Assembly: GCA_016234115.1 (NCBI GenBank)
Contig: JACRHD010000005.1
Coordinates: forward strand, 1 to 64,000
Reading direction: 5' to 3'
DNA: 64,000 bases
Source of the DNA: Nitrospirota bacterium
GTDB lineage: Bacteria; Nitrospirota; Thermodesulfovibrionia; UBA6902
The notes under the pieces are model-generated. The model was not told where the DNA came from. It ran no database searches and worked only from the letters and a program-made list of their open reading frames with translations. This document shows positions 20,182-60,047 of the stretch, one piece after another. Position numbers and translations under genes: made by a program. Each line of letters starts with the position of its first letter. Position 1 is the first letter of the stretch.

Positions 20182-22050
20182 TTATTTTATCATTCTGTAA
20201 TAATTTTCGAGTATTTCCGATGTCCGGTTGAAAAAATAAAAGGCCGCGGACACGGGGAGTTCGTCCGCATGTTCGACAGAGCCTGAAAATGTCACCCCGA
20301 ATCTCGAAGACAAGCTGTTGGCCCCGGTCCGCTGCCTGCCGGCCGCGATCAACAGTCCCTTCCCGTTATGTGAAAACCCGGATATTGTTTCCAGCTCGAC
20401 GTCGGAGAAGAGTCCCCCGGCCCCGCCCTCCCCGAAAAGTATCCATAGCTGAGAGTATTGCGCAAGCAACTCGCGCGACAACACGGGGGTCTCTTTTCTG
20501 TCCGTCACCTTCACTTTAAACCCGTCCTCCTTCTCCAGACCGTCAAGCGCGCCCTGACTGAAGGCCCCCGAATTACCCGCCGTGTTGTAAATCAATATAT
20601 CCATCATGCCTTCCGGCCCGCTGTTTTCTTCGAGCCGGGCCGCGATATTTCTTATGTATCTGCGGTTGTCATATTTGTCGGCGAGGAACCTGCCGGGACC
20701 GGAATCAAAAACAATGCCTCCATGTCCTTCCACCGAATTATCATAAGTAGCGATGGTCCCTTTTCCTCCGGGGTCCATAACGATCTTCACGTGTCTGTCG
20801 TCATGCGCCTTCGTAATAATCGCCGAGCTCCCTCCGGACACCGACCTAACGCCCCGCAAAACAGGATTGCCGGTATCCGTATACGGAGCGAACACCAGGT
20901 TCTGAAAAGACCAGGCAATGACAATCGTCCCGACAATACAGATGATCATATATAAAAAGAACACCCTCTTTCTGAAGATCGTCCAGAACATTACCATGGT
21001 AGGCATGGCCGTCACCGGACCTCCGATAAGGAAGGCGAGTCCGGCCCCTCCGTTCATGGTGCCGTCAAGGGCGCTTTTAATATGATAAAGAATGCTCGAG
21101 GCGCTGATCTGATGCAGAAATATGGGGACCGACCCCATCGTCACCCATATAATGCCGAACTTGTTTTCCTGGTTGAAAAACCTGTAAATCCATTCGTACG
21201 GCATGTATCTCTGCACAATAAGGCCTGAAGCAACTCCGATGAGGACATACTTGCCGACCAGCCAGAGCATCTCGGATGATTTTGCAAGAAAGATGAGGAA
21301 CATATTACCCGTTTTGGCCGCTACCCTGTTGCCGAATTTCTCTCTGCAATTGCATCTCAGGCGGTCGTCGGGATAATTCTCGTCATGGAAATCGCCTCTG
21401 GGGACGGCGCCCTCAATGAATATGGTTTCCGTCTGAAAACCCCTGTTCCTGACAAGATGAGTAAGGACCCCCGCAAATATCCCCATCAGCAACGCAGCAA
21501 GGGTCCGTATCACGGTCCATTCCGGGCCGAGGTCGCTCAGCGTGATCAGATACGTTGTCGGGCTCATCAGCGGGGAAGTAACAAGAAGCGCCATGACCGG
21601 CGCAAGCGGCAGGCCGGCAAACAACAGACTCACCGCGGTCGTCAAAGTGCCGCAGGCGCAGAGGGGGGTCAATATCCCTGTCAGAGACGCCAAAAAAATA
21701 CTGAGGAAACCGTACCGGTCGAGGGTCCGTCTGAGCCTGATCGCCAGCTTGTATGTTCGTATGAAGCCTGCTAAAAGTATCCCGATCATGAAATACGGCA
21801 ATATGTCCTTCAACTCTGCAAGCAACCCATGTTCGCTGAAGAACATATCCCGTATTTCATGTCCGAGTACAAGAGGAAACGGTTTTTGCGACAACCCGGG
21901 GCTTACGGCCTGACCGGTAGGACCGTAAACCCACACATGCCATGCTATAAGCAGAAAAGACGCAAATACCATAAACAGCAGCATCCTGTTGGCCCCCCTG
22001 TGGGGCGCTCCGTGGACCCTGCACCCGTTATTTTCTTTGCGATTTTCCAC
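20182..22050 (-). CDS. UPF0718/ArsP-type permease with extra C-terminal domain
   Basis: About 622 residues from a GTG at 22050 preceded by GAGGG; a TTG at 22113 would add 21 residues and overlap yedE. The N-terminal two-thirds is a permease of the DUF318/ArsP_1 type. Its first half carries LTPLCACGTLTTAVSLLFAG, and the second half has LVGKYVLIGVASG and VPIFLHQISAS. A charged loop between halves contains RCNCREKFGNR. From about residue 420 a soluble domain follows (MMDILIYNTAGNSGAFSQG, ILFGEGGAGGLFSD, GKGLLIAAGRQ). It looks like the class I glutamine-amidotransferase-like fold of GldG/DUF4350 proteins. Related permeases export organoarsenicals or other substrates; the position after yedE suggests a selenium or sulfur link. 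Confidence 0.8.
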   Translation of the reverse strand: MENRKENNGCRVHGAPHRGANRMLLFMVFASFLLIAWHVWVYGPTGQAVSPGLSQKPFPLVLGHEIRDMFFSEHGLLAELKDILPYFMIGILLAGFIRTYKLAIRLRRTLDRYGFLSIFLASLTGILTPLCACGTLTTAVSLLFAGLPLAPVMALLVTSPLMSPTTYLITLSDLGPEWTVIRTLAALLMGIFAGVLTHLVRNRGFQTETIFIEGAVPRGDFHDENYPDDRLRCNCREKFGNRVAAKTGNMFLIFLAKSSEMLWLVGKYVLIGVASGLIVQRYMPYEWIYRFFNQENKFGIIWVTMGSVPIFLHQISASSILYHIKSALDGTMNGGAGLAFLIGGPVTAMPTMVMFWTIFRKRVFFLYMIICIVGTIVIAWSFQNLVFAPYTDTGNPVLRGVRSVSGGSSAIITKAHDDRHVKIVMDPGGKGTIATYDNSVEGHGGIVFDSGPGRFLADKYDNRRYIRNIAARLEENSGPEGMMDILIYNTAGNSGAFSQGALDGLEKEDGFKVKVTDRKETPVLSRELLAQYSQLWILFGEGGAGGLFSDVELETISGFSHNGKGLLIAAGRQRTGANSLSSRFGVTFSGSVEHADELPVSAAFYFFNRTSEILENYYRMIK

Positions 22051-22081
22051 TCGGACCCTCGATTCCTCGAACCCTTGCTTT

Positions 22082-23179
22082 TCAGTCCAGGCCGGTCTGA
22101 TATTCAGGCGCAAGCCCTTTGTCTCTTTCGCGAAAGAGCAGACCCGTTATGACCAGGAAGACAATACCTGTCAGTACGGCAATCTTCCCTGGGAAAGGGA
22201 CTTCCGCTGCAGTAGCAGCAAGCCCCCAGTTCTGTACAAGGGCCCCGCCGACAAGCATGCCCATTACCGTTGCGCCCGCGTCGGTGTCGCCCTGGCCCGA
22301 AAGCACCAATTGTCTGAACGGGCATCCCTTGATAAGGACAGAGCCGAACCCGACAAGACCCATGCCGAGCACGTCCCATAAATAACTTTCAGATGGCCCC
22401 GCCTGTACAGGCATATCGACCGAGAATTGCCCGGTGAGCAGATTCGCCGCCAGCGCCGTAAGAAAGAAAGAGCCGATCGCCGTCAAAAGTCCCGTTGACT
22501 TCGGACATCCCCGGACCTCTCCCGGTCCCCATAAAAACAATCTCGCCAGCCCCCCGGTAATACAAAAGCCCGATATCTGGGCGAAAGACCCGATAAGCAG
22601 TCCGAATAACAAAGACATCCACACAGGCGCGTGGAGAGCCGCGGGACCCTTTACGCTTGTGTGTATGAACGGGACCTGAAACAACAGCAGCATGAAAAGT
22701 GCGAGCATGAAAACCGGCATGATAAAACCGTTTGCTCGCGGCGCGTCCGAGGGCCGTCCGAGCCTGAAACCTCCTTCGAGGAATTTCAGACCCGTCCACA
22801 CGCCGGCCGCAAGCCCTGTTACGCCGCTTACAGCGGAAAAATCCCCCGCAGACAACCGCAGGACCAATTTTATCGGACAGCCTATAAACACCGAGCACCC
22901 GATGATAAGCAGGATGCCGATAAAAAATCTCAGAAGCGGGGAGCCGCCCGAAGTCGTCCTGAATTCTCCTGTGGCAAGAGAGGTAAAAAAAGAACCCAGT
23001 ACAAATGCGATTATCTCCGGCCTGATGTACTGCATCCTTATATCGTCATGCAGTCCGATTGCGCCGGCTATATTTCTCATGAAGCATGAGACGCATATAC
23101 CGGTGTCGGCAGGATTTCCGGCGTAGGAAAGCAGGACCGCCCCGACGCCGAGAACGCCTCCGGCAATTATAAACTTCAT
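22082..23179 (-). CDS. yedE: YedE-family putative selenium transporter
   Basis: About 365 residues, an integral membrane protein with around ten helices. Diagnostic YedE segments are present: YAGNPADTGICVSCFMRNIAGAIGLH, GCPIKLVLRLSAGDF, AQISGFCITGGLARLFL, and WDVLGMGLVGFGSVLIKGCPFRQLVLSGQGDTDAG. The paired Gly-Cys-Pro motifs (IGCPIKL, KGCPFRQ) are typical. The ATG at 23179 directly follows the TPR gene stop; a GTG three codons earlier is possible. This YeeE/YedE branch is found mostly in selenium-using genomes and is proposed to move selenium species. That fits the probable selenoprotein at 58863-60047. Confidence 0.88.
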   Translation of the reverse strand: MKFIIAGGVLGVGAVLLSYAGNPADTGICVSCFMRNIAGAIGLHDDIRMQYIRPEIIAFVLGSFFTSLATGEFRTTSGGSPLLRFFIGILLIIGCSVFIGCPIKLVLRLSAGDFSAVSGVTGLAAGVWTGLKFLEGGFRLGRPSDAPRANGFIMPVFMLALFMLLLFQVPFIHTSVKGPAALHAPVWMSLLFGLLIGSFAQISGFCITGGLARLFLWGPGEVRGCPKSTGLLTAIGSFFLTALAANLLTGQFSVDMPVQAGPSESYLWDVLGMGLVGFGSVLIKGCPFRQLVLSGQGDTDAGATVMGMLVGGALVQNWGLAATAAEVPFPGKIAVLTGIVFLVITGLLFRERDKGLAPEYQTGLD

Positions 23180-23180
23180 C

Positions 23181-23705
23181 TTACCCACAGGACGCCGCCA
23201 GTTTTTTAATAAGATAGCGCGTGTTCTTTTTCGCCGTCTTCATATAGGGGTCATCCGGTCTGTTCGACAGGGTCTCATTTATTTTCAATTTTGCTTCTTC
23301 GACGGCAATCTTTATCTTGCGCCCCTGAAAGAGAGACGTCTTTTTGTCCAGGTAATCAGGGTTCAGGTCAACGGCTTCTCTATACTCATAAACAGCGCCC
23401 ACGGCGTCCTGCCTCCGCATCATTACATCGCCCATAAGCATATGAAGCTCTCCGTCATAAGGATATTTTCCGGTCAATTCTTTTATCAGGGCCTCGGCCT
23501 TCTGAATATTGTTCGCCTCTATCAGTCTTTTGAGTGTCCTGGTTTCCTCTTCCGCGAGGCCGCCTGCGGCGGTCGTGTTCCCCGGGCGGGTCGATGAACG
23601 CTTGATATTTTTTTCGGGACCACTGCGATATTCAGCGCTGACAACGGCAAGAGCGGCAATAAATATCAGGATAAAGACAATAGATAATTTGTCCAGCTTA
23701 TCCAT
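23181..23705 (-). CDS. Membrane-anchored TPR protein
   Basis: 174 residues from ATG at 23705. One N-terminal helix (LSIVFILIFIAALAVVSA) anchors it, followed by a linker and tetratricopeptide-like helices (EANNIQKAEALIKELTGKYP, LHMLMGDVMMRRQDAVGAV, YEYREAVDLNPDYLDK). No Shine-Dalgarno is obvious; a TATAAT-like box sits just upstream. It shares its end with yedE and may scaffold cytochrome or transporter assembly. Function unknown. Confidence 0.75.
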   Translation of the reverse strand: MDKLDKLSIVFILIFIAALAVVSAEYRSGPEKNIKRSSTRPGNTTAAGGLAEEETRTLKRLIEANNIQKAEALIKELTGKYPYDGELHMLMGDVMMRRQDAVGAVYEYREAVDLNPDYLDKKTSLFQGRKIKIAVEEAKLKINETLSNRPDDPYMKTAKKNTRYLIKKLAASCG

Positions 23706-58862: not shown

Positions 58863-60047
58863 TCAGCGCTTGAACCGTCTTTTGCGGTCGGTCCATATGA
58901 GAAGAGCGAAAATGGTGAGCAGCACCGCCGTTGTAGTTATAAAAGCGCTGCCCGGGCCGAACTCGTAGGGCAGCAGCGCGGCCCTCTCATAAAACCATGA
59001 GTCCCTCAGCAGTAAACCGAGAGGCGCCCTTAATCCGACCACGAGCATGGCCCCGAGTAATGCAAACCAGTGTCTTACATATCCCTCGGCGGACCGCCAG
59101 AGTATGCCGCTTACTCAGCCTCCGGTGATGGTCATGCCGAACCCGAATATAACACTTCCAAAAAAGATGTTCCACCCCGCCCTGAAGACATATGACTCCT
59201 CCGGCCTGAGCCCTGCCGTCTTGACAAGGGTAAATCCTGCCACACCGATCAGCAGACTTATAACGAGACTTCTCATCATGCGGGTAGTTCTGGTGACGAA
59301 GATTTCCCTGAAGGCTGAGGCGAAACAGAATGCGGACCTCTGAAAGACTACGCCGAAGAATGCCCCGAAGAGAAAGGCGGCGGCCGGAAATTTCGAGCCT
59401 TTATATATATCTGCGGCTATGATAAATAGTATTACGAGTGATGCGACCGCGGCAATCGCGGGTTGAAAACGCCTGTAATCTTTTTTAATGACCTCGTTTT
59501 TTGACGCATTGCCCATCCGGAGGGGACCGGAGCCGAACAATTTTTCAGACTCCCTGTTTATCTGCCATATCACAAACTTCCCGCCGATGAAGGCGCCGGC
59601 CAGCAAACCCGCCATCATAACGAAGCCGCTCAGCGAAAGCCCCATGATATCCGAATACAGTCCGCCCAGGATGCAGGCGCCGGCCAGGAAACTGCCGATC
59701 CCCATCAGCGAGCCGCCGATGAAGCCCTGAACATAGCCGCTTATTTTTTCTCTTTTCAGGCTGAACTGTTTAGCAGTGAGGGCTGATAAGAAGACCCCCG
59801 ACATCAGGCCGATGTACAGGACATGTTCCGCATAATATCTTGAAGCCTGCAAAAACTGCGCAGGCGGCTGGATATTCATCGAAGGGATTTTATAAACCCA
59901 TCTTCCCCAGTCCGCAATAACCGCCGTAGTAGTCGCTATGGGCCCTGAATACAAAAACATCAGGGTATTAAGCAGCGCCAATATTACCGCGCCGAGTTCC
60001 GAAGGCCACTTTTCCTCAAAGATTTTTTTATAAAGGTCGGAAGGCAT
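58863..60047 (-). CDS. YeeE/YedE-family transporter, probable selenoprotein (in-frame TGA = Sec311)
   Basis: Read through one TGA (59115-59117), the frame gives 394 residues. Before the TGA: LNTLMFLYSGPIATTTAVIADWG, MGIGSFLAGACILGGLYSDIMG and QRSAFCFASAFREIF, all YeeE/YedE (sulfur transporter) features, ending IFGFGMTITGG. After it, in the same frame, come VSGILWRSAEGYVRHWFALLG and two further helices to LLIWTDRKRRFKR. Family members have Cys in this Gly-Gly-Cys position, so the TGA replaces the conserved Cys of the second repeat. A SECIS-like hairpin follows at the right distance. A nonsense mutation is the alternative. Sulfur or selenium oxyanion transport is inferred from family. Confidence 0.75.
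59077..59107 (-). promoter_or_regulatory. Bacterial SECIS-like hairpin
   Basis: In the mRNA, 19 bases after the UGA, a GGUCC apical loop is closed by UGGC/GCCG, then CU/GG after one mismatch. After a two-base bulge GCAUA/UAUGU continues the stem. This meets the usual bacterial SECIS rules (loop 16-37 bases after UGA, G in the first loop positions) and recalls the GGUC loop of E. coli fdhF. Confidence 0.65.

Follow-up and report, generated by a model that had tools for sequence, protein, structure and literature searches.

A YeeE/YedE selenoprotein with the motif GUxSG is already present in published catalogues, including a 2022 review (PMC13188914, PMC9312934), and the main texts of the two primary studies cited by the catalogue do not name it. 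Another described relative is the thiosulfate importer TsuA/YeeE of Spirochaeta thermophila (StTsuA, PDB 6LEO), in which three cysteines form a relay, with Cys91 in the middle. Two of these, C91 and C293, are called indispensable in a study of SoxT, which left open whether sulfur is transferred covalently between relay residues or is passed by hydrogen bonds only (PMC11582611). The locus considered here lies in a 64,000-nucleotide stretch of a Nitrospirota genome (contig JACRHD010000005.1 of GCA_016234115.1), hereafter called the window. The original prediction presented its yeeE/yedE-family gene as a new selenoprotein. The reading as a selenoprotein is strongly supported, as described below, while its novelty at the level of the family has to be given up: the family was predicted earlier, and the window gene adds a member to it.

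How is this gene built? With a standard gene caller the frame stops at residue 310, as had been foreseen, and since standard callers end such genes at UGA, the window-type YeeE proteins would be annotated as truncated. Past the TGA at codon 311, the frame goes on for 83 more residues (VSGILWRSAEGY...) up to a second TGA (Table 1). When read through, the window protein matches the Pfam family Sulf_transp (PF04143) in two stretches with 155.5 bits against a cut-off of 27; both halves of the family are present in circularly permuted order, the C-terminal half aligning to the first half of the profile. The original observation holds in every respect. The Sec motif of the translation is GUVSG, and the proposal that a conserved Gly-Gly-Cys is encoded here as Gly-Gly-TGA agrees with relatives whose codon at the aligned position is TGC. 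Upstream of the window copy lies a gene for a DUF1059 protein.

Table 1. Positions of the features discussed (unlabelled positions are those of the window; own genome, the genome of the window)
Feature	Position	Strand	Remarks and basis
yeeE/yedE-family gene	58863-60047	minus	394 codons, UGA 311 predicted to be Sec, end at UGA 395; translation, PF04143, homologues with the same architecture
Open frame up to TGA 311	59115-60047	minus	310 aa
Predicted Sec codon TGA, residue 311	59115-59117	minus	Equivalent to StTsuA Cys91; homologue DNA and PDB 6LEO alignment
SECIS-like hairpin	59085-59102	minus	Loop GGUCC, bulged U; loop GGUC in 18/18, stem codons constrained
Cys125 codon	59673-59675	minus	Aligned with StTsuA Cys293, the first cysteine of the relay; invariant in 22/22
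Cys241 codon	59325-59327	minus	Aligned with StTsuA Cys22, the third cysteine of the relay; in 15/18 Sec forms
Terminal TGA (codon 395)	58863-58865	minus	No comparable hairpin downstream
Second YedE (TIGR04112 seleno_YedE)	22082-23188	minus	372 bits, cut-off 200
ArsP_1/SO_0444-like permease	20182-22113	minus	CAC motif
DsrE-like carriers near Sec-YeeE	L067:14001-14357 (own genome, C24); L070:6876-7280 (own genome, C46)		TGA at L-U-GGC; relatives likewise
PrdB/GrdB-like gene	L070:1757-2508 (own genome, C46)		TGA in motif PTU..C
selD	L100, C33:32321-33232 (own genome)		One in-frame TGA inside the gene
yeeE of Acetoanaerobium noterae	L102:4001-5332		Two half-proteins, Cys-type

In the bacterial family of the window, 37 genomes were searched, and nine of them yielded 18 close full-length homologues, with 39-69% identity in the alignment. 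Each homologue has a single internal stop, a TGA, which in the DNA falls on the same codon throughout (18/18). Three of these 18 copies belong to the genome of the window itself (contigs C21, C24 and C46). Four distant relatives, with 30-31% identity in the alignment, have TGC at the Sec site, so that the aligned site over the 22 members is TGA in 18 and TGC in 4. Since all close homologues down to 39% identity share this codon and are free of further internal stops, the TGA at codon 311 is more than a chance event, and a sequencing error is excluded by the 18 copies. Maximum likelihood places all 18 Sec sequences in a single clade (support 99/99). In a phylum-wide sample of 396 genomes, Sec forms occur in the window's own bacterial family only, and searches of plasmid, phage and viral-contig proteins gave distant YedE matches only, or none. 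What kind of selection acts past the TGA? For the 75 codons that follow it, pN/pS is about 0.05-0.40 across pairs, and it is similar in the 75 codons before it if pairs with one sequence (G031_C25) are ignored, whose values are inflated because of a one-codon length difference near the site. Moreover, four residues past the TGA, Arg318, Ala320, Glu321 and Gly322, do not vary among the 22 aligned proteins. By these measures, the sequence past the TGA evolves as protein.

The predicted GGUCC-loop hairpin is found where it was expected: it reads CUC-U-GGC-[GGUCC]-GCC-GAG, and its loop starts 19 nt after the UGA. While all 18 Sec forms keep the loop GGUC at this distance of 19 nt, the Cys forms have GGAC and have lost the stem. 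Folding of 45 nt gives -13.7 kcal/mol after UGA 311 versus -1.3 after stop 395. Pair counting revealed no measurable covariation among the 15 directly alignable hairpins, whose stem is nearly invariant, the three C46-type paralogues with a shifted stem being excluded from this alignment; an Rfam search of the hairpin region gave no family matches but one at chance level. Because the stem hardly varies, a codon-choice test was used instead of covariation. For the Ala of the 3′ stem, GCC is used in 18/18 versus 31% of the other Ala codons in the same genes, and a control Ala nine codons past it never uses GCC; the Arg at the entrance of the loop has CGG in 15/18 versus 13% elsewhere. All four TCN codons occur for the loop Ser, and all four GGN codons for the Gly that lies two codons ahead of the stem. 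It is to be noted that these counts come from related sequences and hence are not independent events. In the three C46-type paralogues, Gly replaces Trp and AGG replaces CGG, and a stem rebuilt in a different register (CGGCA/UGCCG) again closes the GGUC loop. Judged from codon usage, the hairpin is kept through codon choice.

The machinery for Sec insertion is complete in the own genome (3.5 Mb, 97% complete), where selA, selB, selC and selD are all present: tRNA-Sec scores 72.5 bits and has the anticodon TCA, and the profile matches are 359 bits for SelB, 618 bits for SelA and 325 bits for SelD. Of the 37 genomes of the bacterial family, 31 have a SelB match that reaches the family cut-off. 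One carrier of Sec-YeeE, G010, has a partial SelB-like match only (174 bits, from a contig edge), in an assembly of about 640 contigs. The selD gene of the own genome has one in-frame TGA, and SelD is therefore likely a selenoprotein too.

Taken together, the conserved TGA, the conserved hairpin, protein-type selection past the TGA, the full Sec machinery and the alignment with Cys91 strongly support, at the level of sequence, the Sec reading, and we are highly confident that UGA 311 of the window gene is read as Sec. SelB and Sec-tRNA(Sec) would decode it with the help of the hairpin just downstream, and translation would end at UGA 395, which has no such hairpin. Could UGA 311 instead be a true stop, leaving either a pseudogene or a 310-residue protein whose downstream part is unused or separately started? 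The frame drawn by the standard gene caller is in line with it, but the same TGA in 18 copies from nine genomes with no other stops, purifying selection beyond it and the four invariant residues there make this very improbable. Nor is it any easier to believe that UGA is read as another amino acid, such as Trp, via a reassigned code or plain read-through, for which the open frame is the only argument: relatives have Cys at the aligned position, their Cys forms have lost the hairpin, the gene itself ends with UGA, and the Sec machinery is complete.

If UGA 311 is Sec, where in the transporter would it act? Window residues 225-331 align with StTsuA residues 6-111, and residues 65-150 with 232-318. 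Counted along these alignments, Sec311 corresponds to Cys91 (Ala in 6LEP), Cys241 to Cys22 and Cys125 to Cys293. Because Sec311 falls on Cys91, Sec lies in the middle of the relay, and the expectation that it occupies the transport cysteine agrees with this alignment. The Cys22 equivalent is absent from three of the 18 Sec forms and from all four Cys forms. Three Sec-YeeE forms (L071, L072 and L073, from G010, G018 and G016, respectively) have D-G-U instead of G-G-U; these forms have no Cys22 equivalent but still possess Sec and the Cys293 equivalent. An AlphaFold prediction from four sequences reached a pLDDT of 35 and was set aside. A thiosulfate or sulfane-sulfur type substrate may be imported along Cys125, Sec311 and Cys241, with the selenolate at 311 providing the central contact or forming a transient Se-S bond. 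A selenolate is mostly deprotonated at neutral pH; it donates hydrogen bonds poorly but is a good nucleophile. Therefore, a selenolate at the Cys91 position would tilt the balance to covalent transfer and away from the hydrogen-bond relay proposed for TsuA, and a natural Sec at this position provides a handle on the question of covalent versus hydrogen-bond passage of sulfur in YeeE proteins.

The surroundings of the paralogues point to sulfur. On contig C24 of the own genome, the gene order is arsR, yeeE(Sec), dsrE, dsrF-like, dsrH-like, SQR-like and dsrE2-like, and seven loci have dsrE, dsrF and dsrH near Sec-YeeE, every dsrE having an in-frame stop inside. In six of the seven, the six that were read out, the stop is a TGA at the site L-U-GGC. 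The TGA of the C24 dsrE is residue 77, and its TusD/DsrE profile match ends at position 77, near Cys78, the active cysteine of TusD and DsrE. DsrE-like UxxC selenoproteins are a catalogued family, and DsrE near Sec-YeeE seems to be a second selenoprotein of the neighbourhood. The upstream ArsR protein has weak similarity to the model of sulfite-sensing BigR (44 bits, cut-off 155). About 2.5 kb downstream of the C46 paralogue is a PrdB/GrdB-like selenoprotein gene (PF07355; TIGR04483 162 bits, below the cut-off of 300), and two PrdB/GrdB-like genes are near the G010 copy of Sec-YeeE. The dsr neighbourhood supports the view that the paralogues, at least, take part in importing and handling sulfur; they would then probably pass the cargo to the co-encoded DsrE/F/H-type carriers, DsrE seemingly also with Sec. 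No sulfur genes were found adjoining the window copy or its four closest orthologues, and because of this we infer the substrate of the window copy only from the paralogues and the fold family. As a tentative idea, which we hold to be possible though not the likelier case, Sec-YeeE and Sec-DsrE might form a dedicated import relay of two selenoproteins, with a covalent Se-S handover from the Sec in the membrane to that of the cytoplasmic carrier, the window copy being a branch away from the operon. The Sec-DsrE pairing hints at a sulfur pathway with two successive selenium-dependent steps in poorly known Nitrospirota.

The window also encodes the separate YedE of the selenium-associated branch announced in the original prediction, about 35.7 kb off; it matches TIGR04112 (Table 1), and its frame is open, with no TGA. 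It adjoins an ArsP_1/SO_0444-like permease gene; SO_0444 transporters are a catalogued selenoprotein family, and the copy in the window has Cys, not Sec.

What, then, is transported? Sulfur as the substrate appears to us the moderately probable answer, argued from neighbourhoods and homology. The same Sec protein might instead carry a selenium species, its Sec then serving selenium supply. The best NCBIfam match in all 22 members is indeed selen_YedE_FdhT, with 144 bits and below its cut-off of 350, and the second YedE attests to the organism's investment in selenium handling; but that dedicated TIGR04112 protein is already in the same genome, and the paralogues sit with sulfur carriers and an SQR-like enzyme rather than with sel genes, so that a selenium substrate looks rather unlikely. 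Slightly less credit still is given to Sec-YeeE being mainly a sulfur sensor that feeds a regulator rather than a bulk importer, after the manner of Hyphomicrobium SoxT1B, which acts in signalling and depends on all three cysteines (PMC11582611). An ArsR-family regulator directly upstream of several paralogues would suit such a sensor, whereas the sulfur carriers and the SQR-like enzyme of the same operons fit import and use, and no regulator adjoins the window copy. Import of sulfur therefore remains our preferred reading.

How does the locus compare with the systems described so far? The catalogued YeeE/YedE selenoprotein belongs to the same family PF04143 with a predicted Sec, and its GUxSG motif fits the GUVSG of the window; WP_012471001.1 of the catalogue is likened to the window protein by family and motif only. 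In distinction to it, we have here a clade of 18 in Nitrospirota, with operon paralogues that carry GUAAG, GUAVG or GUVVG. In the literature covered, which is incomplete, we did not find described such a clade of Thermodesulfovibrionia-type Nitrospirota, three Sec paralogues in one genome, the GUxxG variants, the mapping onto Cys91 or the neighbourhood with a TGA-bearing dsrE. The Acetoanaerobium noterae YeeE, which is split into two half-proteins flanking a TusA-like gene, was rejected as a Sec form, having no TGA at the site. TIGR04112 seleno_YedE, a putative selenium transporter, is a distant relative without Sec; against its cut-off of 200, the window Sec protein has 23 bits. The window protein is also below the NCBIfam cut-offs for TsuA (NF052577, 93 versus 400 bits; NF041049, 77-83 versus 645 bits), and no TusA-like YeeD gene was recognised beside the window copy, unlike in the StTsuA comparison system. 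StTsuA is homologous in both halves and its three relay residues can be aligned, but the window protein has the halves swapped in order and Sec in place of Cys91. The SoxR-SoxT modules likewise combine an ArsR-type regulator and a YeeE-like importer near sulfur-carrier genes (PMC11582611), as the paralogues do. No sox genes were noticed in the stretches read around the paralogues, and where those modules have TusA, the paralogues have DsrE/F/H-like carriers with a TGA in dsrE, next to an importer that itself carries Sec.
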